The position numbers and the translations under genes were made by a program. This document shows, piece by piece, positions 17,961 through 27,158 of a stretch of DNA of 64,000 bases (positions within the stretch are counted from its first letter, which is position 1; each line of letters opens with the position of its first letter). Location of the stretch: assembly GCA_902561795.1 (NCBI GenBank), contig CACERG010000001.1:62001-126000 (forward strand). The letters are read 5' to 3'. The notes beneath the pieces were generated by a model. It worked only from the letters and a program-made list of their open reading frames with translations. It searched no databases and had not been told where the DNA came from. The DNA comes from an uncultured Bacteroidota bacterium. Lineage in GTDB: Bacteria; Bacteroidota; Bacteroidia; Flavobacteriales; Flavobacteriaceae.

Positions 17961-17964
17961 ATTT

Positions 17965-18015
17965 AAATCATCGACATATCATCTTCATTAAGTTTAGTGA
18001 CTAATTTGTATATTG
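17965..18015 (+). repeat. Array element 1 (recombinase-tail repeat plus promoter)
   Basis: First copy. The minus strand encodes TKLNEDDMSMI-stop. The right end is the promoter core CTAATTTGTATATTG, whose TTTG is 35 nt from the ATG at 18043. Confidence 0.85.
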
Positions 18016-18042
18016 TTGAATAATAATTATAAATCATTTAAA

Positions 18043-18324
18043 ATGAAAGATATACTTGTTGTTGGAAAACTTAGAGAAGGAAAGTTTGATAAATTTATGG
18101 GCTTTATGAAATCTGAAGAGGGAATGAATGAAAGAAGAAAAATTGCAGATTTGACGAAAACTTTAGGTACAGTTTCCCCAGATAAAAGTGCAGTAATGTT
18201 CAAAATTGCTGTACACGATGAGGATGCTATGTATTCATTTTTGGATGGTTCAAATCCTGTGTCAAAACCAATTTTTGATGAGGTTATGGAGAGCTATGAG
18301 ATTTTTGAGTTAAACAAAATTTAA
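18043..18324 (+). CDS. Small ABM-like (dimeric alpha/beta-barrel) protein, cassette 1
   Basis: Start set at MKDILVVG (18043), after the leader ATAAATCATTTAAA, rather than at the upstream ATG (18013) that lies on the promoter. The 93-residue product has no signal peptide. It shows strand (DILVVGKLREGK), helix (FDKFMGFMKSEEGMNERRKIA), strands and a C-terminal SYEIFEL strand, as in ABM-like ferredoxin-fold dimers. The closest relative in the window is the 88-residue protein at 23641. Function unknown. Confidence 0.65.
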   Translation: MKDILVVGKLREGKFDKFMGFMKSEEGMNERRKIADLTKTLGTVSPDKSAVMFKIAVHDEDAMYSFLDGSNPVSKPIFDEVMESYEIFELNKI

Positions 18325-18333
18325 TCTTGCTTC

Positions 18334-18384
18334 AAATCATCGGCATATCCTCTTCATTGAGTTCAGGGACAAATTTGTATATTG
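18334..18384 (+). repeat. Array element 2
   Basis: The minus strand encodes PELNEEDMPMI-stop, the consensus tail. It differs from other copies at synonymous sites (CTC for Leu). The promoter core AAATTTGTATATTG lies 35 nt before the ATG at 18412. Confidence 0.9.
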
Positions 18385-18411
18385 ATACTCATTAACTATA
18401 AACCAATTAAA

Positions 18412-19143
18412 ATGAAAAAAATATTTCTAGTAGCAATTTCTTTATTCACGATATCAATATATGGTCAAACCAAATTATATGATAATGTTTTCATAAAAGC
18501 TGAAAATATTTATGAATATGATCAATTTGTAAAGGAACATTATGCCAAAATTCATAACGAAAGAGTCAAAAATGGAATGTTACTTCAATGGGATGTATGG
18601 AAAGTTGTTGATACCCCACAAGAGGACTTTACTCATATGGTGACTTACATTTATGACATTAAAAAATATCCAAATGAGGCCACACCTTATGAGATGGTTG
18701 GTATGACAAATCTCCAGTGGGGTACAATTCAAGAAAAGGTAAATCAAATGAGAGACCGAGTGGCACAAGTTAAATGGATTGATTTAGGGTCAGCTAGAAA
18801 AAAAGGAGTAGACTACCTTCCAGAAATTATGGTATTAAATATGATGAAAGTAGTAAATGGTAAAGCTGGTAGTTACGAAAAAGAAGAAATTAAAAGAACA
18901 AAATCTATCAGTAATAATTCAAACAAAGTTGGATGGAATTTCCATAGAAGAATTGGCGAATATGGGAGTGACGTTTATTTTACACACGCCACAATTGACT
19001 GGTATGATAGCTATAAAAATTATTTAAGCGGATGGTTTGGTGATTCATCTGATAGTAACGGACAAGGATTTAATTGGGATAGTTTAAGAGAACTTAAAAA
19101 AATGGTAGTTATGGAAAAACTAATTAGTTCAACTGATAAATAA
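18412..19143 (+). CDS. Exported paired ABM-like protein, cassette 2
   Basis: MKKIFLV at 18412 is used as start, fitting the shared leader; an upstream in-frame ATG (18382) overlaps the promoter. The 243-residue protein has a signal peptide (1-18, cleaved near GQT). It resembles the protein at 30320: both have QWDVWKVVDTPQEDFTHMV / GWHLWEVVANPQAPFTHMI in the first half, a VNMMKV / VNWMKV strand opening the second half, and GWNFHRRIGEYGSDVYF / GWSLAKRIDKVGVDVYW. It ends in a terminator that abuts the next element. Confidence 0.72.
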   Translation: MKKIFLVAISLFTISIYGQTKLYDNVFIKAENIYEYDQFVKEHYAKIHNERVKNGMLLQWDVWKVVDTPQEDFTHMVTYIYDIKKYPNEATPYEMVGMTNLQWGTIQEKVNQMRDRVAQVKWIDLGSARKKGVDYLPEIMVLNMMKVVNGKAGSYEKEEIKRTKSISNNSNKVGWNFHRRIGEYGSDVYFTHATIDWYDSYKNYLSGWFGDSSDSNGQGFNWDSLRELKKMVVMEKLISSTDK

Positions 19144-19151
19144 TTCTAATG

Positions 19152-19175
19152 CCCTCCCTAGTGGAGGGTTTTTTA
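19152..19175 (+). terminator. Cassette 2 terminator
   Basis: CCCTCC/GGAGGG stem, five-base loop and a seven-T run; ends about 2 bp before element 3. Confidence 0.9.
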
Positions 19176-19176
19176 T

Positions 19177-19220
19177 ACCATCGGCATATCCTCTTCATTA
19201 AGTTCAGAAGTAAAAATACG
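19177..19220 (+). repeat. Array element 3
   Basis: The recombinase-tail half is intact (SELNEEDMPMV on the minus strand, last residue changed). The usual TTTGTATATT half is replaced by a different sequence. Confidence 0.8.
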
Positions 19221-19264
19221 GAGTAGTGATATTTTAGATATCTTAACTAACTAATACCAACAAA

Positions 19265-19735
19265 ATGAAAAAGCTACTTCTTATTTTATTATTTGTTCCT
19301 ATAGTTGCTTTTGGGCAAACCAAGAAATTAAAAGAAACTCTAATTAAAAAAAGCATAAAATGGACTGAGGTTGCATCAACAGGCAGAAACTATGAAGAGG
19401 CAAAAAAATTTCTAATACCAAATATGGATTCCTCAACCTTTTCATCAAATGGAACTCAACTAAGGATATATGATGAGGAGTATTTTAATTCGCCAATAAA
19501 GTATAAATGGGTAAGTTTTGAAACAAATAACCACACAGTTCAAGTTTCCCCAAATGGTTATACCGCAGTTGTAACATTTAATGTTGATGGAAGTTACATT
19601 TTTGAAGGAAATAAAACACCTTATGCTGTAAGAGCCTCTTTTATTTGGACAAAAGTAGACGGTCTATGGAAAAAAATTCATTCACACTGGTCACCAAGAA
19701 AAGGTGCTGTTGGGATACCAACAAAGGACAGATAA
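19265..19735 (+). CDS. Exported NTF2-like protein, cassette 3
   Basis: A 156-residue protein with a signal peptide (about 1-18, FGQ). A helix (LIKKSIKWTEVASTGRNYEEAKKFLIPN) is followed by four long strands including HTVQVSPNGYTAVVTFNVDGSYIF, RASFIWTKVDGLWKKIHSHWSPR, the typical NTF2-like sheet ending in W-K-I-x-x-x-H. Such an ending is often ligand-facing, but the substrate is unknown. The promoter differs from other cassettes, since its element lacks TTTGTATATT. Confidence 0.7.
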   Translation: MKKLLLILLFVPIVAFGQTKKLKETLIKKSIKWTEVASTGRNYEEAKKFLIPNMDSSTFSSNGTQLRIYDEEYFNSPIKYKWVSFETNNHTVQVSPNGYTAVVTFNVDGSYIFEGNKTPYAVRASFIWTKVDGLWKKIHSHWSPRKGAVGIPTKDR

Positions 19736-19738
19736 ATA

Positions 19739-19764
19739 TTTTAGAGTTCCCTAAATTTGAATAC
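19739..19764 (+). repeat. Truncated array element
   Basis: TTAGAGTTCCCTAAATTTGAATA aligns with the right half (AAGTTCAGGGACTAATTTG) of the array element, while the recombinase-tail half is missing. It would mark the junction between the two genes of the E3-E4 interval. Confidence 0.4.
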
Positions 19765-19783
19765 TAATCATAAATCAATTAAA

Positions 19784-20236
19784 ATGAAAAAAATATTATT
19801 TATCCTGACTACAGTATTTTTCTCTGGATTTGTTTTTTCACAAGAAAACAAAGTTCTAGAAAGTCAAATTGTAAAACAATGGATGGATTACTCAAAAGGT
19901 TTTGAGTATAAGGATTACGAAAGAATTGCTAGTCATTTTACTTATCCTGCAATTTTTAACAATTCGACTCCAATAATAGTGAAGAACAAAAAAATGATGA
20001 TCGAAGCTTACAGATCTGTTAGGGAAAATGTTCAGAAAGATTATAAATATTCACTAATTGATAAGTGGAAATTAATAAATATTACAAACGAATTTCTAAT
20101 ATTAGATGCTCATTATTCTAGATACAATGCCGATTATAAGCAAATCTTATCTGGTAGGGGATTATACTTTTATAGGAAAGTAAATGGTAACTGGTTTATT
20201 AAAGAGGTCACTACTCTTTCACAAAATAAACTTTAA
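19784..20236 (+). CDS. Exported NTF2-like protein
   Basis: Start at MKKILFIL (19784) behind ATAAATCAATTAAA. The 150-residue protein has a signal peptide (about 1-19). The SnoaL-like order is helix QIVKQWMDYSKGFEYKDYERIASHFTYPAIFN, then helix KKMMIEAYRSVREN, and strands ending GLYFYRKVNGNWFIKEVTTLS. H/Y-F-T-Y-P-A in the first helix-strand corner is common in the family. It is the only array gene not preceded by a full element. Confidence 0.7.
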   Translation: MKKILFILTTVFFSGFVFSQENKVLESQIVKQWMDYSKGFEYKDYERIASHFTYPAIFNNSTPIIVKNKKMMIEAYRSVRENVQKDYKYSLIDKWKLINITNEFLILDAHYSRYNADYKQILSGRGLYFYRKVNGNWFIKEVTTLSQNKL

Positions 20237-20251
20237 ACACAATTTAAATCC

Positions 20252-20302
20252 AGATCGTTGGCATATCTTCTTCATTAACTTGAGGGACTAATTTGTATAT
20301 TT
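20252..20302 (+). repeat. Array element 4
   Basis: The most diverged complete copy: the minus strand encodes PQVNEEDMPTI-stop, with GAA for GAG and CCA for CCG. The promoter core CTAATTTGTATATT is intact. Confidence 0.88.
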
Positions 20303-20322
20303 AATTAACCATAAATCAAAAA

Positions 20323-21129
20323 ATGCGTTTTTTAAGATTTGAAAAAATAATCAATTTAGTTCGAGGTAAGTATCTACGCTATGCAGTTGGCGAAACAATT
20401 TTGGTTGTTATTGGGATTCTTTTAGCACTTCAAGTAAATAATTTAAACGAAAAAAGAAAATTAAGGGTTCAAGAAAAGAATGTTTTATTGTCTTTACATA
20501 ACGAAATATCTAGCAACCTAATAAGTCTTGAGACTTCACTAAATGAAAAAAAAACCATTCTTCAGGTAAATAAAAAGCTTTTAGAAAACACCTCACCTGA
20601 AGGAAAATGGAAATCAAAAGAAAAACTAGATAGCTTGATGTATTATTTTACAGTTTCTGGCTGGATTTATGTTCCAGACAACGGAGTATTAAATGAAATT
20701 GTAAACTCTGGTAAACTATCAGATTTAGAAAATAATTCAATTAAAAATTTAGTCGCATCTATTCCACAACAAGTGTCTCAAATCCTTGAAGAAGACAGAA
20801 TATATAGAGATGATTTACATCAGTATTTTCTACCATATTTAGGTAAAAAATTTGCATTAAAAAATATTGCTAAATACAGAGAATTATATAAATACAGTAA
20901 GTCAGCATTAGGGAAATCAAATTTTAATATTAACTATTCAATAATTTTAGGAGATTTAGAATTTGAGAATATTTTAACTATACAAGCAATATGGATAAAG
21001 TTTTCAATTGAAATGTGTGAAAACCTTAAATTAAAATACTTAAAACTTCAAAAATTAATTGAAGAAAAATATCCAAATGTCGATTATTCTAAATTAAAAG
21101 AAGATTTAGAAAATGGATTTTGGGGATGA
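20323..21129 (+). CDS. DUF6090-like membrane protein, cassette 4
   Basis: A 268-residue protein with one membrane helix at about 26-42 (YAVGETILVVIGILLALQVNN) preceded by a basic N-terminus and followed by long helices (EKNVLLSLHNEISSNLISLETSLNEKKTIL). The GILLALQVNNLNEKRK phrase is the recognisable DUF6090 signature. It is a longer relative of the protein at 13250. The bulk is predicted periplasmic or cytoplasmic coiled coil; role unknown. The stop is only about 6 bp from the next element. Confidence 0.7.
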   Translation: MRFLRFEKIINLVRGKYLRYAVGETILVVIGILLALQVNNLNEKRKLRVQEKNVLLSLHNEISSNLISLETSLNEKKTILQVNKKLLENTSPEGKWKSKEKLDSLMYYFTVSGWIYVPDNGVLNEIVNSGKLSDLENNSIKNLVASIPQQVSQILEEDRIYRDDLHQYFLPYLGKKFALKNIAKYRELYKYSKSALGKSNFNINYSIILGDLEFENILTIQAIWIKFSIEMCENLKLKYLKLQKLIEEKYPNVDYSKLKEDLENGFWG

Positions 21130-21132
21130 TTA

Positions 21133-21182
21133 TATCATCGGCATATCCTCTTCATTAAGTTTAATGACTAATTTGTATATTG
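21133..21182 (+). repeat. Array element 5
   Basis: The minus strand encodes IKLNEEDMPMI-stop. The promoter core CTAATTTGTATATTG is 35 nt before the ATG at 21210. Confidence 0.9.
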
Positions 21183-21209
21183 GTTATTATTAACCATAAA
21201 TCAATTTAA

Positions 21210-21941
21210 ATGAAAAAACTATTCTTATTAATTATTTTACTACTATTTTCTAATCTTGCTGGAGCTCAAATTATACAAGCTAGAGTTTTAGATATTGAGC
21301 CTATGAATTTAGATAAAATGAAATCAGCAGTTGCTGAAAAAACCAAATTATATAACTCAAAAGAAGGCTCTACAAGATTTTCAACATTTGAAATTTTATC
21401 TGGCCCAAATACAAACAATTTATGGAGAGTCCAACACGGAGAAGAAATAGGCGATTTTGACTCATCTGTGAGCAAACAAGAATTAGATTATTGGTGGAAA
21501 ACAACTGGAAAGTTACACACACCTCTTGCAAACCGCTTTTGGTATTTAAATAAAGATGCAACATATATTCCTGATGGTTATAAAAGACTAAATCACAGAA
21601 GGGTAATTATTTATAAGTTAATCCCAGGGAAAGAAAAAGACTTTTGGAGATATAGAACTAGACTATCAGATGCAATGAAAAAAGCAGGATGGAAAAACAG
21701 AGTAGGTGTTATGTCTTGTATGTCAGGATGTAATGGTAATTGGGTGATGGTTAGATATCATCATAAAGACTTAGCTTCAATGCAAGATGAAAACTCTAAT
21801 ATGTTTTCAAAAGTTGTAGATAAATACAACGAGCTTTATGGAAAAGATTCATATGAGGATGATTACTTAAATATCCAATTATCAGTATCTGAAAATATTT
21901 CACACTTTCAAAAACTATTACCAGAGCTAAGCTCAAGATAA
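21210..21941 (+). CDS. Exported paired ABM-like protein, cassette 5
   Basis: A 243-residue protein, same length as and closest to the one at 6737. Signal peptide about 1-19 (AGAQ). The second half opens with LNHRRVIIYKLIPGKEKDFWRYRTRLSDAMKKAGW, paralleling NDHRRIAFLSYKEDKKDDFWTFQMRAKKAYEKIG in the relative. A local CMSGCNGNW segment has two cysteines absent from the relative. The related gene sits in the non-array part on the other strand, so the family crosses the array boundary. Confidence 0.72.
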   Translation: MKKLFLLIILLLFSNLAGAQIIQARVLDIEPMNLDKMKSAVAEKTKLYNSKEGSTRFSTFEILSGPNTNNLWRVQHGEEIGDFDSSVSKQELDYWWKTTGKLHTPLANRFWYLNKDATYIPDGYKRLNHRRVIIYKLIPGKEKDFWRYRTRLSDAMKKAGWKNRVGVMSCMSGCNGNWVMVRYHHKDLASMQDENSNMFSKVVDKYNELYGKDSYEDDYLNIQLSVSENISHFQKLLPELSSR

Positions 21942-21951
21942 GAAATATTAA

Positions 21952-21976
21952 AACCCTCCCAAGCGGAGGGTTTTTT
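21952..21976 (+). terminator. Cassette 5 terminator
   Basis: AACCCTCC/GGAGGGTT stem followed by a T-run; element 6 starts right after it. Confidence 0.9.
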
Positions 21977-21977
21977 A

Positions 21978-22027
21978 TATCATCGGCATATCCTCTTCGT
22001 TAAGTTCTGGGAGTAATTCGTAAATTG
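21978..22027 (+). repeat. Array element 6
   Basis: The minus strand encodes LPELNEEDMPMI-stop, with AAC for Asn. The promoter half is changed to TAATTCGTAAATTG. Confidence 0.88.
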
Positions 22028-22054
22028 TTTCTTATTAACCATAAATAAATCAAT

Positions 22055-22582
22055 GTGAAAAATATTCTATTAATATTATTAACTACATCAATAATAGCTT
22101 CCTGTCAAAATCAAGCTCAAAAGAGTGAAAAGGAATTAAAAGCAGAAATATCTGAAAATATTGTTCTTAAAAATTTTGAGTATATCTCATCAGGAGATAT
22201 GGATTCTTTTCAAAAAACTATAAGTAGTGATTTTAAATTTATTTTATCAGGAACACTAAAATGGAATGATGGTAAACCACTTTCAAGAATATATGAAGGA
22301 TATGACTCGTTTATAAATGATTTCCTTACACCTGCTTTAGCAACAATACCAAATGGTCTAAAATTCAATTTTGATAAAATTATTGCTAACGATTCAGGGG
22401 CTGCAGTTATTTGGCACGGTGAAAGTGAGGCATTATATGATACTTACAATAATAAATATGTTTACATATATGAAGTAAATGATGAAGGGTTGGTATCTTC
22501 TATAACAGAGTACACTGATTTACTCTTGTCAGCATCATCTTTACTTGGACAAAAAATTAATACAAACTTTAAAGAGGAATAA
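22055..22582 (+). CDS. NTF2-like lipoprotein, cassette 6 (GTG start)
   Basis: The reading frame starts with GTG at 22055 (an ATG one base earlier is out of frame and meets a stop at once). The 175-residue lipoprotein has lipobox IASC (Cys17). Helix ISENIVLKNFEYISSGDMDSFQKTISSDFKFILSG then a SRIYEGYDSFINDFL segment and strands AAVIWHGESEALYDTYNNKYVYIYEVNDEG match SnoaL-like proteins. The E-x-x-x-x-x-D/N-x-K-Y pattern recurs in members of this group. Ligand unknown. Confidence 0.7.
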   Translation: MKNILLILLTTSIIASCQNQAQKSEKELKAEISENIVLKNFEYISSGDMDSFQKTISSDFKFILSGTLKWNDGKPLSRIYEGYDSFINDFLTPALATIPNGLKFNFDKIIANDSGAAVIWHGESEALYDTYNNKYVYIYEVNDEGLVSSITEYTDLLLSASSLLGQKINTNFKEE

Positions 22583-22584
22583 TC

Positions 22585-22634
22585 AAATCATCGGCATATC
22601 CTCTTCATTTAGTTCAGTGACTAATTTGTATATT
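22585..22634 (+). repeat. Array element 7
   Basis: The minus strand encodes TELNEEDMPMI-stop, with CTA for Leu. The promoter core CTAATTTGTATATT is 35 nt before the ATG at 22663. Confidence 0.9.
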
Positions 22635-22662
22635 TAAAATTATTAATCATAAATCAATTAAA

Positions 22663-23448
22663 ATGAAAAAAATAGTATTTGTACTTTATACTCTGTTTAT
22701 ATGCAGTTTTTCTTATGCCCAGGAAAACCAAATATTTTTAATGCGTTTTCACGAAATGGAAATCACAGGTGACCAAAATGAGTTTATTTCAGCGAATAAG
22801 AATTACTTTAAACCATTGGCTAAACAAGCCATTGAAGATAAAAAATGGGCCGGTTGGGATATGCTTCAATCAGTAACTGAATCAAATAAGTATATTTTCA
22901 TCCATTATTTTAGCAGCCCAAAACAATATGAAGAATTTAAAGGTGCATTTGACTCTGATGTTGTAGAAAAGTTAGGATTGAAATCTCCTAATTGGGATGC
23001 ATTTAAATGGAAGACTACGGCACCAATGGAGATTTATCAAATTGTTTCAGTTGCAAATGGTGATTCGAAATCAAACTATTGGGTTAAAAATGATTTTAAA
23101 TTTAACAATCGCCAAAAATTTATCGATAATAATAAATTATGGGGTGAACTAGTGGTAAAAAAGATGCAAAAAAGCGTTAAAGGTATGAATTGGGGTTTTG
23201 GTATTAACTTAACATCAGACAATTTTGAGAATGGAGAGGCAGTTTCATTTAATGGAATTTCTTTTGATGGGGCGTATTCTCTTCAAGAACTTTTGACTAA
23301 TAGAGCTCACAAGGAAAATCCTGAATCAAATGATTCCTTCAATAAAATATATCAAAAGTTCATAAATGAAATTCAGAAGAAAGAGTTAGGAAATTTCAGT
23401 ACTGCTAAAAAAACAACTATTTGGAAAGTTATTGATACCACTTGGTAG
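22663..23448 (+). CDS. Exported paired ABM-like protein, cassette 7
   Basis: A 261-residue protein with a signal peptide (1-19, cleaved near YAQ). The first domain has IFLMRFHEMEITGDQNEFISANKNYFKPLAKQ, WAGWDMLQSV and KYIFIHYF; the second has EIYQIVSVANGDSKSNYWVKNDF, then MNWGFGINL and AVSFNGISFD. The repeated strand-helix-strand layout matches the local family, but the sequence is more distant from the others. It has its own promoter and terminator inside the cassette. Confidence 0.68.
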   Translation: MKKIVFVLYTLFICSFSYAQENQIFLMRFHEMEITGDQNEFISANKNYFKPLAKQAIEDKKWAGWDMLQSVTESNKYIFIHYFSSPKQYEEFKGAFDSDVVEKLGLKSPNWDAFKWKTTAPMEIYQIVSVANGDSKSNYWVKNDFKFNNRQKFIDNNKLWGELVVKKMQKSVKGMNWGFGINLTSDNFENGEAVSFNGISFDGAYSLQELLTNRAHKENPESNDSFNKIYQKFINEIQKKELGNFSTAKKTTIWKVIDTTW

Positions 23449-23475
23449 TTTATATTAAAAATTATTTAAAAATCG

Positions 23476-23500
23476 ACCCTCCTTAGTGGAGGGTTTTTTT
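23476..23500 (+). terminator. Cassette 7 terminator
   Basis: ACCCTCC/GGAGGGT stem and a seven-T run; element 8 begins at the next base. Confidence 0.9.
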
Positions 23501-23591
23501 AAATCATCGGCATATCCTCTTCTTTAAGTTCAGGTATTTCTAATCCTCTTAAATAAGTTAAACTTACATTTATAGATGAGTGTCCCACAGC
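23501..23591 (-). pseudogene. Array element 8: tyrosine-recombinase 3'-end remnant
   Basis: This copy extends further than the others. The minus strand reads GHSSINVSLTYLRGLE and then IPELKEEDMPMI-stop in one frame. The GH-x-S-x(5)-T-Y-L pattern is box II of tyrosine recombinases (GH of the catalytic set, with the nucleophile Tyr in TYL). Upstream on the minus strand the frame is closed by TAG after a few codons, so only the C-terminus remains. It shows that the short tail in all copies derives from a recombinase gene. Confidence 0.75.
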
Positions 23592-23640
23592 CTATTGATA
23601 ATTTTATAACTTAGGTGATAAATAACTTAAATATAATTTT

Positions 23641-23907
23641 ATGAACTTAATGTTAACTGCAAGCTGTAATAATGCTGATGATTTTAAAATAAATGGCTAT
23701 GAAAAATTTAAGCATGAGTTTTCTGATTGGTGTGATTCTTCAAAATGTGTTTTTTGTAAAATTGATGATCAAAATGTTTTAGAACTATTTTTTGATGTAA
23801 AACCTCCCAAACTTCAAGAGTGGTTAGCTAAACCATCCACTCAACAAATGTTTAAAGAACATAATTTAGTTCCTAAAAGATATTCTTTTGAGCCACTATC
23901 AATATAA
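23641..23907 (+). CDS. Small ABM-like protein, cassette 8
   Basis: An 88-residue protein related in layout to the one at 18043: VLELFFDVKPPKLQEWLAKPSTQQMFKEHNLVPKRYSFEPL parallels AVMFKIAVHDEDAMYSFLDGSNPVSKPIFDEVMESYEIFEL. It has no signal peptide. The N-terminal cysteines (SCNN, DWCDSSKCVFC) are unusual for the family and could bind metal or form disulfides. The leader lacks the ATAAATCAATTAAA motif. A shortened N-terminus compared with a precursor is possible. Confidence 0.55.
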   Translation: MNLMLTASCNNADDFKINGYEKFKHEFSDWCDSSKCVFCKIDDQNVLELFFDVKPPKLQEWLAKPSTQQMFKEHNLVPKRYSFEPLSI

Positions 23908-23955
23908 TTTTCTACTTGAAGCAAAATATTAGAGACGCCAAAGTAAATTGCTATT

Positions 23956-24006
23956 AAATCATCGGCATATCCTCTTCATTAAGTTTAGGGAATAATTTGT
24001 AATTTT
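23956..24006 (+). repeat. Array element 9
   Basis: The minus strand encodes FPKLNEEDMPMI-stop. Promoter core AATAATTTGTAATT lies 39 nt before the ATG at 24038. Confidence 0.88.
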
Positions 24007-24037
24007 ATAATTATTAACCAAAAACCGTTTATCTATT

Positions 24038-24613
24038 ATGCGACGAATTGTTGTGTTTTTTTCATTGATACTTTTTATTACTTGTAACTCATCTGAAGAA
24101 TCATCTCCTGAAGAAAATAATGTGATTACTAATTCCATTGAGACTAAAGAAAAATTTCTTCAACGATATGATAATACAATTTGGAAAAAGCAAGTAGACG
24201 AAACCTTATATGAAGAAGAATTTTTACCTTACATAAGATTCTCAAATACTACAACTCCTATATGGATTATAGCAGCTCAGTGTATAAAAAGAGTTGAGGG
24301 AACAATCACTCAAACTTTAAACGGGGTAAGTTACAGCCAAAACAGGTATTTGGACGTTAATGAGGAGAATAGATTAATATATAAATCTGTTTGGGCTACA
24401 CCTGGTAATAATGGAGAACCTGTAGGATCTTTAGCAGCAAATATAAAATATGAGGTTTATGAAAGTCCAGAGGGACCGTATATGGAGATCAGAGATCTAG
24501 ATGAAGATGACAACATCACAGAATCATCAAGAGATTTTGCTAGCGGCAGGTGGTTTCTAACTGAAGGTAATGATTGGGACCAACTAGTCGAAATCAATGG
24601 CCTATGTAACTAA
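24038..24613 (+). CDS. Lipoprotein of unknown function, cassette 9
   Basis: A 191-residue lipoprotein (lipobox LFITC, Cys16) with an acidic linker (SSEESSPEENN). The mature part resembles small lipocalin-like domains: RYDNTIWKKQVDETLYEEEFLPYIRFS, IIAAQCIKRVEGTITQTLNGVSY, KYEVYESPEGPYMEIRDLDED and a C-terminal Cys (NGLCN) that may pair with the Cys of AAQC. No named family is certain. The stop codon overlaps the first bases of element 10. Confidence 0.58.
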   Translation: MRRIVVFFSLILFITCNSSEESSPEENNVITNSIETKEKFLQRYDNTIWKKQVDETLYEEEFLPYIRFSNTTTPIWIIAAQCIKRVEGTITQTLNGVSYSQNRYLDVNEENRLIYKSVWATPGNNGEPVGSLAANIKYEVYESPEGPYMEIRDLDEDDNITESSRDFASGRWFLTEGNDWDQLVEINGLCN

Positions 24614-24664
24614 ATCATCGGCATACCCTTTTCATTTAGTTTTAAGGGCTAATTTGTATTTTTA
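24612..24664 (+). repeat. Array element 10 (last, decayed)
   Basis: The minus strand reads KLNEKGMPMI-stop, but the frame is broken by one base upstream. It starts within the stop codon of the preceding gene. The promoter half is CTAATTTGTATTTT. Confidence 0.8.
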
Positions 24665-24688
24665 TTCATTAAATATTAATTGATTTTT

Positions 24689-25132
24689 ATGAAACCCTTT
24701 TGTCTTTCTTTAATAATTACCCTATTTATTAGTTGTGAACAACCAAAAAAGATTTCTGAAAAAGAAGTAATGGAAACATTTAATGATTTCTTTTACTTAT
24801 TAGATAATGATGTTGATAAAATTAGGGACTATTTAACAGATGACTTTATGATTTTTGAAGTAAGTAGAAAATGGAATACAGAAGAATTTATAGAATTTGT
24901 TAAAGGATTTGGGGAATTTCAGTCTAAAAGAAATTTTAAAAATATTAAGATTGATACAGATTTTAATTCGGCTCATATCAGTCTTGAACATACTGGTGAA
25001 TTTACTCTTGAAAAACCAATTCAAAATGGATCAAAAACTCTATCATATGAATGGCTTGAGAGTGCATACCTGATAAAAGTAAATGAAAAATTAAAATTTA
25101 AATTTTATTTTTCAGAACAAATTAATGATTGA
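24689..25132 (+). CDS. NTF2-like lipoprotein, cassette 10
   Basis: ATG at 24689 is preferred over the upstream TTG (24680). The 147-residue lipoprotein (lipobox LFISC, Cys16) has a helix (EVMETFNDFFYLLDNDVDKIRDYLTDDFMIFEVSRKW) and a helix (TEEFIEFVKGF), then strands HISLEHTGEFTL and YEWLESAYLIKVNEKLKFKFYFSEQ, the NTF2-like order. The gene overlaps the next frame by 8 bp. Confidence 0.68.
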   Translation: MKPFCLSLIITLFISCEQPKKISEKEVMETFNDFFYLLDNDVDKIRDYLTDDFMIFEVSRKWNTEEFIEFVKGFGEFQSKRNFKNIKIDTDFNSAHISLEHTGEFTLEKPIQNGSKTLSYEWLESAYLIKVNEKLKFKFYFSEQIND

Positions 25133-25559
25133 AAATTTATTCAAATCAACAGTATTTATTCTTCATAAAATTCGAGTAACTTTCTTTACATCTAAGATCA
25201 AAAAACATAAATCAATTAAAAAACTAATATCGTTATTAGCGGTTTTATTTATAAGCTGCTATGCATTAAAATCTGGGGTAACAATACCAGCAAATGAGAC
25301 ATTTATTCTTGGAGAATCTAATACTAAAAATTATAGAGCTGAAATTAAAAATACATCTAAATTTAAAATACTAATAAAAGGAGAAAAAAAACAAACTGGA
25401 GAATATACTCAAGGAGTTGAGTTGCCTCCAAAAGGAAACTTAAGATTGTATGTTGCTCCAGATGAAGTGATTAGGTTTATAAATGATAATAATATGTCTA
25501 TAAAGATAGATTTACAGTTAACAAGAGGAGTTGAAGGAATGAGATACATTAAAAATTGA
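25125..25559 (+). CDS. Small lipoprotein with damaged start
   Basis: The frame contains a lipoprotein signal (KKLISLLAVLFISC) and a ~90-residue beta domain (YRAEIKNTSKFKILIKGEKKQTG, PKGNLRLYVAPDEVIRFINDN). It would naturally start with MKKLIS, and the common leader CATAAATCAATTAAA is present at 25207-25221, but the ATG that should follow is missing. The only in-frame ATG (25125) overlaps the previous gene and adds about 30 odd residues before the signal. Translation may use that ATG or a non-ATG codon, or the gene may be dead. Confidence 0.5.
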   Translation: MIENLFKSTVFILHKIRVTFFTSKIKKHKSIKKLISLLAVLFISCYALKSGVTIPANETFILGESNTKNYRAEIKNTSKFKILIKGEKKQTGEYTQGVELPPKGNLRLYVAPDEVIRFINDNNMSIKIDLQLTRGVEGMRYIKN

Positions 25560-25594
25560 ATCCTCTGTATTTGTTCTCCGTTATGTCAATTACA

Positions 25595-25606
25595 TCTTTG
25601 TATATT
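25595..25606 (+). promoter_or_regulatory. Promoter core TTTGTATATT
   Basis: ATCTTTGTATATTG with TTTG 35 nt before the ATG at 25635; no recombinase tail is recognisable upstream, so the promoter exists independently of the array element. Confidence 0.6.
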
Positions 25607-25634
25607 GTAATCTGTAAACTATAAATCACTTAAA

Positions 25635-26279
25635 ATGAAAAATTTAACTGTTGTTTTAATTATAATTTTTTTAACCTCTTGTAAAAATTCAAATACTGAA
25701 AGTACAATGACTGAAAAAGAAAATGTAAGATATACAGTGTCTTGTAATTTAATTTACGACTATCAAAGAGCTCAACAATTTACATTTAAGTATTTAGATG
25801 CCATGCCTGAGGAAAATTATAGTTTTAGACCAACTCCAGAAATTTTATCTTTTAGAGAAGAAGCTATCCATCTAGGTCTTGTAAACTACAGATATGCAGC
25901 TATGATAGCTGGTAGCTATGATGCTAGTGACGAAAAAGAAATTATGAGTCGTCAAGAATTACAATCAAAAAAGCAAGTAATGGAGTTTGTTTCTAATAGC
26001 TATAATGTCATGATTAATCAAATAAATAGTGAAAAGGATCTTAATGCTAAAACTTATTACTATAGATGGAGCTGTAGTAAAGAATGCCTAGCACGAAAAG
26101 GGTTTGAGCATCAATCTCATCATAGAGGAAAATTTGCTATATATTTAAGATTAAAAGGTATTAAACCCCCATTCGAACAATTAATTTTTAAAGATGGAGA
26201 TACACCAAAAAGAGATATTGAAATTGAAGATTGGAAAGCAACTGAGAATTTTAATAAATATAAAAAGCTTGTTGATTAG
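25635..26279 (+). CDS. DinB-like lipoprotein
   Basis: A 214-residue protein with a lipobox (FLTSC, Cys16). The four-helix DinB layout is visible: AQQFTFKYLDAMPEENYSFRPTPEILSFREEAIHLGLVNYRYAAMIAG, then a middle helix (KKQVMEFVSNSYNVMINQI) and FEHQSHHRGKFAIYLRLKGIKPP, the diagnostic last helix. Histidines in AIHLG and QSHHRG would form the divalent-metal site. DinB proteins are thiol transferases or metal hydrolases; a secreted lipoprotein version is less usual. Substrate unknown. Confidence 0.8.
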   Translation: MKNLTVVLIIIFLTSCKNSNTESTMTEKENVRYTVSCNLIYDYQRAQQFTFKYLDAMPEENYSFRPTPEILSFREEAIHLGLVNYRYAAMIAGSYDASDEKEIMSRQELQSKKQVMEFVSNSYNVMINQINSEKDLNAKTYYYRWSCSKECLARKGFEHQSHHRGKFAIYLRLKGIKPPFEQLIFKDGDTPKRDIEIEDWKATENFNKYKKLVD

Positions 26280-26366
26280 AATGTAAATAAGGTGAAAAAA
26301 ACAAAAAATTTAACAGATTTGTAATCGAAGAGTTTTACATTTGAGTTTAACTATAAATCAATTACA

Positions 26367-27158
26367 ATGAAAAAACTAATATTTTTATTTCTACTACCAT
26401 TATCAATTACAGCTCAATATGCTGTAGCTGACTTTATTGTTATTAATGAAGGTATGGAAAAAGACTACGAAAAGTTAGAATTGGCTTGGTCTATTTTAAG
26501 ACAAAACCAAATTGACAAAGGCCAGAAAATGAATTGGGCTGTTTGGAAAAGAACTCCTAAAACAAATGATAATGAGAACGCAGCAGATTACGTAGTTTTC
26601 AATCAGTTTGAAACAAAGGAAGAAATGGATAAATATCTTAAGGGAAATCCTAATTTTTCTTTTTCTTCAGCCGCATCAATTATTAGAAGAGGTATGAAAG
26701 GAATGTCAAAAAGTTCGATTATAAATCTTATGACACCGAGTAAAAATAAAATCAAAAAAGAAGTAAGAACCTATCATATTCAAGCTATTGACGGAACTCC
26801 TTTTACAGGTGGCGACCTAAAAATTGGAGAAAAAATATTAATGGATCCTATGGTTCAGATAAGTGAAGAGTACGAACAAATGGAATCGAATATTTGGAAA
26901 CCTCATGTGCTTGAACAAGTCAAAAATGGCTTACATAGAGGATGGGCGTTAACAAAAATTATTAATAGAGGAGAAACTTCAAATAAGGAAGTAACTCATT
27001 TTACATTTAATATTCCTGTCGAAGGTGCTGAATGGCCACCTTATTTTGTGGAAAATGATTTCATAACAAAAAAACTATCTGGATTAATGACTAATTCCAG
27101 AAAAAGACCATACGGAAGTGCTGAACTTACCTTGATGATGCAAAAGCAAAGTAATTAA
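26367..27158 (+). CDS. Exported paired ABM-like protein
   Basis: A 263-residue protein with a signal peptide (1-16, TAQ). It is a close paralogue of the protein at 29471: they share the QYAVADFIV opening, WAVWKRT, NDNENAA-YVVFNQF, VRTYH-Q--D-TPFTGGDLKIG and NKEV/I-H. Since one is on the plus and the other on the minus strand about 3 kb apart, they form an inverted pair. Two halves of about 115 residues fit two ferredoxin-like domains. Confidence 0.72.
   Translation: MKKLIFLFLLPLSITAQYAVADFIVINEGMEKDYEKLELAWSILRQNQIDKGQKMNWAVWKRTPKTNDNENAADYVVFNQFETKEEMDKYLKGNPNFSFSSAASIIRRGMKGMSKSSIINLMTPSKNKIKKEVRTYHIQAIDGTPFTGGDLKIGEKILMDPMVQISEEYEQMESNIWKPHVLEQVKNGLHRGWALTKIINRGETSNKEVTHFTFNIPVEGAEWPPYFVENDFITKKLSGLMTNSRKRPYGSAELTLMMQKQSN

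Follow-up and report, generated by a model that had tools for sequence, protein, structure and literature searches.

A candidate gene-cassette system of Flavobacteriales in which the 3′ end of a phage-type tyrosine recombinase gene matches the site repeated between cassettes

The DNA analysed here, referred to as the window, is a 64,000 nt stretch from an uncultured member of the Flavobacteriaceae (contig CACERG010000001.1, positions 62,001–126,000). Using a 40-position DNA profile together with the ORF map, we identified a cassette array at 17963–24649 on the plus strand, consisting of ten co-oriented elements (23.7 to 51.0 bits) with genes between them, all likewise on the plus strand. The recombination-site-like core of element 1 (17963–18002, 39.3 bits) is followed by a cassette 1 gene of 103 aa without a Pfam match (18013–18324), and element 2 (18332–18371, 48.2 bits) by a gene of 253 aa (18382–19143), the family of which is also found in another genome, G030 (locus L113), with other neighbours. 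Downstream of element 3 (19173–19212, 43.9 bits), cassette 3 contains two genes of 156 and 159 aa (19265–20236) with weak DUF4440/SnoaL-like matches below the cut-off, whilst element 4 (20250–20289, 23.7 bits) precedes a 268 aa gene with a DUF6090 domain (2e-9; 20323–21129). Element 5 (21130–21169, 43.2 bits) is followed by a 243 aa gene (21210–21941), element 6 (21975–22014, 44.9 bits) by a 175 aa gene with a weak SnoaL-like match below the cut-off (22055–22582), and element 7 (22583–22622, 45.9 bits) by a 261 aa gene with no Pfam match (22663–23448). Between element 8 (23499–23538, 45.5 bits), which continues into a recombinase remnant, and element 9 (23954–23993, 51.0 bits) there is an 88 aa ORF (23641–23907), and a similar unit exists in G030 (L113). 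The cassette 9 gene (191 aa, no Pfam match; 24038–24613) has its stop codon in element 10 (24610–24649, 31.1 bits), after which a 150 aa gene (24680–25132) is closed by no profile-detected element. Further on, at 25134–26403, cassette-like leaders are visible at 25187, 25592 and 26347 with no core detected by the profile, and the genes in this region are possibly decayed cassettes. Additional elements were found on contigs C3, C18 and C25 of the same genome.

An earlier note on this DNA had described the minus strand of element 8 as the remains of a tyrosine recombinase gene, and translation confirmed both the frame AVGHSSINVSLTYLRGLEIPELKEEDMPMI, ending in a stop codon at 23499–23501, and the in-frame TAG that closes it just upstream, inside 23499–23598. 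When these 100 bp of the minus strand (accurate to a few bases) were compared with the 3′ end of an intact recombinase gene (L106), 93 bases were identical (E = 2e-39), a match that extends through the stop codon and lies far above chance. The feature is thus a recombinase 3′-end remnant comprising box II, the Tyr, the tail and the stop. Its assignment as a tyrosine recombinase C-terminus is supported by the intact homologues from the genus, four of which match PF00589 (7e-13 to 1e-10), and the GH and Tyr of the peptide do occupy catalytic positions, H321 and Y330, which are invariant in 44 relatives. A profile check of the 28-residue peptide itself against Pfam returned no match, probably as a result of too few residues. 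The same note had held that the tail recurs in the nine other elements and that element 8 reveals where they came from. The core is indeed present in exactly nine others, but only the last ∼39 bp are common, the box-II extension being readable in element 8 only; element 8 does explain the other nine, although these need not be decayed copies of the gene. What the nine have in common is only ∼39 bp behaving as a recombination site, and it is in this site that the recombinase gene ends. In the window's own genome (80.8 % complete, 41 contigs) the remnant was the only trace of this recombinase by profile search; one Xer-like protein is also encoded, and its end differs from the recombinase tail.

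The parent of the remnant is a phage-type tyrosine recombinase of ∼350 aa. With the 28-residue tail as query, 21 of the 38 genomes of the genus gave a match at E 0.01, and profile searches revealed full-length open recombinase genes in five of them (G017, G025, G026, where the gene sits at a contig edge, G030 and G036). The five recombinases of a first alignment were 347–364 aa long, with 48–51 % identity to the first, and three matched the phage integrase family phrog_1 (6e-21 to 9e-29). In a profile alignment the Tyr of the peptide coincides with the Tyr ending the matched stretch of the archaeal Xer structure 4a8e, which we take to be the nucleophile. Alongside H321 and Y330, residues R208, K236, R298 and H299 are invariant in the 44 relatives, and Tyr295 stands at the position of the first His of HxxR, the usual tyrosine recombinase pattern having His first. 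A structure model built from 44 sequences reached a mean pLDDT of 89.6; a first model from five sequences was poor (mean pLDDT 57.9) and was discarded. In a fold search, lambda integrase matched residues 3–343 of the model, nearly its full length, at an rmsd of 15.7, meaning that the domains are placed differently, and integron, Tn1549, Xer and Cre recombinases were also returned with tied scores (top Z 16.7). Both catalytic residues and fold are consequently those of tyrosine recombinases: the modelled fold is generic for the group, with an additional N-terminal portion like that of lambda integrase, and by descent the enzyme groups with phage-type integrases.

The intact gene ends in ELNEEDMPMI-stop, and its last 39 bp (the last 12 codons plus the stop) are the same site that is repeated between cassettes. 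Ten copies lie in the window, and the whole collection came to 191 distinct copies (elements of at least 20 bits, distinct in context). For the 102 copies with no more than four mismatches, information was high over ∼38 positions, with a sharp start at the recombinase stop codon and continuing into the last codons, and a weaker promoter-like stretch adjoins this high-information part. The gene end is also frozen at the codon level, as identical degenerate residues used the same codon in 37–50 % of comparisons over residues 1–290, 56 % over 291–320, 72 % over 321–336 and 82 % over 337–347 (36 pairs of 10 sequences, in the residue numbering of that analysis). Because freezing starts before the 39 bp, either a longer stretch may be exchanged or a further binding site may lie there. 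Across all lineages (48 sequences, 1106 pairs) the effect was weaker, at 40–46 % rising to 55 %, and the tail Asp was GAT in all 1059 comparisons. When 78 elements, each taken as 70 nt, were compared with simple shuffles, neither strand tended to form a hairpin (mean z +0.52 and +0.38), nor was an inverted repeat apparent in the site, where the best 12 nt arms had seven matches, equalled in 156 of 300 shuffles; the conserved feature of the site is its sequence, not a fold. Inside cassette sites, the nonsynonymous/synonymous ratio was 0.38–0.47 in the recombinase frame versus 0.51–1.55 in the five other frames, and the stop codon was kept in 153 of 191 sites versus 74 % expected from independent columns, a coding signal that is suggestive only, the copies being related rather than independent. 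A frame open for 11 codons and ending in a stop was present in 130 of the 191 sites.

In order to survey the genus we searched all 38 genomes for the core, which was found within three mismatches in 28, whilst a reversed control pattern had no match in any. From part of the genus loci (selected stretches and 16 short loci) we collected 220 element matches and 145 distinct cassettes in 105 families. Median spacing was 862 bp for the first 120 cassettes, and in this first set the longest ORF was co-directional with the element in 107 of 119 cases. A sense ORF of at least 60 aa was found in 131 of the 145 cassettes; it began 60–110 nt after the element start in 97 of these. In 112 its end lay at most 120 nt short of the next element or reached 4 nt into it, and in 37 the stop codon coincided with element positions 1–3. 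As such, these are tandem, co-oriented, mainly single-gene cassettes with one site each, as in an integron. Most of the 96 cassette proteins searched were unmatched among the best 25 of 33 Pfam families, which included Beta-lactamase-fold (4), InlB-type repeat (4), esterase (2) and SnoaL-like (2) proteins, single matches to GH92, PALP, YceI and rhodanese, and no phage or transfer genes. The idea that cassettes carry defence genes was dropped, as none of the 96 proteins matched PADLOC at 1e-5, and a crude signal-peptide count gave no separation between cassette genes (77 of 96) and other window genes (16 of 20).

Most elements also carry a repeated promoter-like and leader stretch to the right of the core (TAATTTGTATATT ... 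ATAAATCAATTTAAATG; for example, 21162–21210 on the plus strand, from repeats and alignment), bringing the whole repeat to about 85–110 bp. The Bacteroidota −7 box is TANNTTTG; this sequence is present in 8 of the 220 elements, and TAATTTG starts at position 39 in 56. Of 33 other window genes, 12 are preceded by the pattern TA-N(1-2)-TTTG, compared with 16.5 % of random stretches, and the stretch beyond the core presumably functions as a promoter. A terminator-like motif preceded the element in only 15 of 215 cases. In L141 and L137 a further conserved stretch flanks the core of the elements (around CCTACAAAAGGGGTTAGAA); it is similar to the recombinase codons at the corresponding place and perhaps represents a promoter that arose from the antisense strand of the recombinase gene.

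With respect to the position of the recombinase, the clearest cases have an intact gene at the end of an array. In G025 (L107) the gene has another gene on one side and the array on the other; the first site of that array is the 3′ end of the recombinase gene, towards which the next cassettes are directed. L119 and L124, from other flavobacterial bins, show this arrangement in the genes immediately adjoining the recombinase, with two genes in the opposite direction further on in L124. A downstream neighbour within 1.5 kb was present for 38 of 45 distinct recombinases; it was convergent in 25 of the 38, with 17 ending no more than 60 bp from the recombinase stop, and nine neighbours overlapped the recombinase by exactly four bases. 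Full-length frames stand beside occupied sites in L104, L107, L108 and L119. Of 55 full-length recombinases, 16 had the gene's own 39 bp end repeated downstream, in 28 copies; upstream there were 8 copies, and the opposite strand had 5. The remaining 39 lacked a downstream copy, in some cases because too little flanking sequence was available. As a control, a 39-mer taken from within the gene was repeated in only one of the 55 loci (615 copies, in L180). An extra element was found by profile in 27 of the 55 loci, several of them weak. Elements occur upstream of the recombinase or its remnant as well in L125, L138, L141, L152 and L187, and on the other strand in L137. Arrays without a recombinase are also found: the one in the window's genome (L016) is bounded by a gene like that beside the L107 recombinase (in length, with near-identical ends), the neighbour of the G036 recombinase similarly bounds an array in G028 (L111), both matches being judged from the ends without alignment, and G037, an assembly of four contigs, has 15 sites and no intact recombinase.

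Individual cassettes were found in different company in different places, as neighbours differed in 47 of 51 comparable cases among 56 homologous cassette pairs. One orthologous array, shared by G036 (L112) and G030 (L108), differs in content. The two match at 87 % until shortly after an element, and a match of 91 % resumes where a later gene begins. Between these flanks the cassettes are different: one array has ∼2.3 kb of them, the other 1.1 kb that includes a PALP gene, and the right-hand element of this difference is weak in L108 and undetected in L112. Three loci, L164, L185 and L187, encode proteins 83–98 % identical to cassette proteins of the genus, although the recombinases of these loci have different tails, which hints at possible cassette transfer between lineages. 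The array of L170 looks freshly duplicated: the profile detects about a dozen elements there, several recombinase ends are broken, and cassettes recur, with near-copies of one 133 aa gene. The best surviving alternative to cassette movement is that an element with its att site in its own integrase gene was inserted repeatedly, leaving decayed tandem copies whose leftover cargo we see as cassettes, with no capture of single genes. That element 8 is a true gene remnant, that several broken recombinase ends lie inside the arrays of L170, L185, L187 and L152, and that most genomes of the genus have no intact recombinase gene are all in keeping with it. Nevertheless, most elements share the core only and are not gene remnants, the units are single genes at regular spacing and individual cassettes change neighbours, and as such we regard repeated insertion as unlikely.

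To locate the point of exchange we aligned homologous pairs, picked by flank identity and not all independent, on their sites. On the left, pairs were no more alike than unrelated elements from about position 11 on (25 pairs), and on the right identity rose at about position 38, reaching 0.87–1.00 over positions 39–52 (15 pairs). A stricter set of 23 left and 11 right pairs agreed, confining the crossover to no less than about positions 4–36; data for a minor-allele test within the core were too sparse to narrow this interval. Homology thus breaks inside the site and not in the equally repeated promoter-like stretch beside it. This favours exchange in the core over plain homologous recombination, in which the repeated promoter and leader would take part too. 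Shuffling of genes by homologous recombination between dispersed promoter-bearing repeats, with no site-specific enzyme, would find in the repeat enough length for some pairing. However, its breakpoints should spread over the whole repeat, whereas the promoter-like stretch stays with its downstream gene and left homology has ended well before it; moreover, a recombinase gene ends in this core, and we hold this explanation to be quite improbable.

A different integrase, with a Phage_int_SAM_5 domain, adjoins the same 39 bp site by its stop codon in G020 (C23, L078), where it is a 393 aa open frame, and in G026 (C3, L077), where the frame is broken, as if it had taken over a platform end. It might accordingly be the working enzyme on this site, with the recombinase studied here merely one user; yet it stands beside a site in just 2 of 30 loci fetched in its family search, and the studied recombinase carries the site as its own codons in many lineages, so that we give this suggestion very little credence. 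Finally, an ordinary but divergent integron with an unrecognized IntI, which would share the same cassette-array logic and for which an integron integrase is listed first among many equally scoring matches of the fold comparison, is largely refuted, given that no IntI scores above the cut-off in any of the 38 genus genomes, the site does not fold and the recombinases ending in it reach only 17–28 bits against TIGR02249 (four proteins), where the cut-off is 265.

The anatomy of gene, site and array, the differing cassette neighbours and the breakpoints within the site can all be read from the sequences, and they point to site-specific, mostly single-gene mobile cassettes served by this recombinase family, a reading to which we assign a probability of roughly three in four. 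Exchange would take place at the ∼39 bp element between cassettes, with the gene's 3′ end serving as the platform site; recombination of the platform with a cassette site, or between two cassette sites, would insert, remove or reorder cassettes. Catalysis would be by this enzyme, with circles as putative intermediates. Were a cassette circle to recombine with the platform, the last codons and stop of the gene would come from the cassette's site, and each exchange would hand the enzyme a fresh copy of its own end. Since most sites can encode the enzyme tail, the gene should usually stay open when a cassette lands beside it, and as each cassette has its promoter-like stretch beyond the crossover, no common array promoter would be needed. 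The assembly of the window's genome has only a broken recombinase, and element 8 would be the leftover platform end, leaving the array stranded unless a recombinase acts in trans. Speaking against this reading are the scarcity of intact recombinases in the genus (with none in G037 despite its 15 sites), the 39 of 55 recombinases that have no downstream copy of their end, the weaker codon freezing across all lineages, the upstream elements in five loci and the different integrase that adjoins the site in two genomes. We are less sure that cassettes still move at present in some members, as no circle or empty site was seen.

A scan of 84,980 species genomes yielded at least 80 recombinase loci. 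Among those listed, hosts are Bacteroidota, mostly Flavobacteriales bins or single cells, the exception being three loci from a single bin labelled Euryarchaeota; loci from named cultured organisms are those of Flavobacterium ammonificans GENT11 and distant proteins of Pedobacter and Mucilaginibacter. In a family sample, 18 of 397 genomes matched the recombinase at 1e-30. Arrays thus appear rich in the host genus and patchy elsewhere, and many relatives of the recombinase may be solitary. No recombinase match was found at E 1e-5 in 50,697 phage and 72,556 plasmid records, and in IMG/VR the exact core was absent, with none of 72 candidate stretches confirmed for the recombinase. We found no description of this cassette system in the open-access literature.

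On balance we favour, with somewhat less assurance than the cassettes themselves, the broader view that this is a second gene-capture platform beside the integron, independently evolved, in which a lambda-type recombinase has its own last codons as platform site, each capture renews the end of the frame, and cassettes with promoters of their own are passed around among Flavobacteriales. If true, a recombinase outside the IntI family performs cassette capture, which would mean that cassette capture arose more than once, and part of the flexible gene pool in these small flavobacterial genomes would be explained. The system would also offer a conventional site, defined by its sequence, in a role for which a folded attC is the usual assumption, and the overlap of site and reading frame would restrict exchange partners to those encoding the tail of the enzyme.

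The textbook example of gene capture is the integron, and the arrays described here resemble integrons in several respects. As set out in passages of PMC8618304, integrons too have a recombinase gene at one end of tandem, co-directional, mostly single-gene units with one site each, their units change neighbours, and arrays without an integrase occur. In those passages only some integron cassettes carry promoters, whereas a promoter-like stretch is present in most of the flavobacterial ones. Furthermore, the enzyme is not IntI by sequence and the site has no attC-like hairpin. Where integrons have attI beside intI and cassettes pointing away, the platform site here is part of the gene's 3′ end, and the cassette that follows is directed towards the gene, in line with the predominance of convergent neighbours noted above. 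A recombination site inside the integrase gene is also known from archaeal suicidal (SSV-type) integrases, where, according to parts of PMC8371274, integration splits the gene; in contrast, the site here is the extreme 3′ end, its partner sites code for that tail as well, occupied sites are found next to full-length frames and the hosts are Bacteroidota. With the integrases of phages and conjugative elements (lambda Int, Tn1549 Int, phrog_1) the enzyme shares sequence family and fold; unlike the contents of such elements, however, the cargo in the mapped arrays resembles single genes (among the best 25 of 33 Pfam families). We infer that the flavobacterial system would work like an integron without being an integron by descent.
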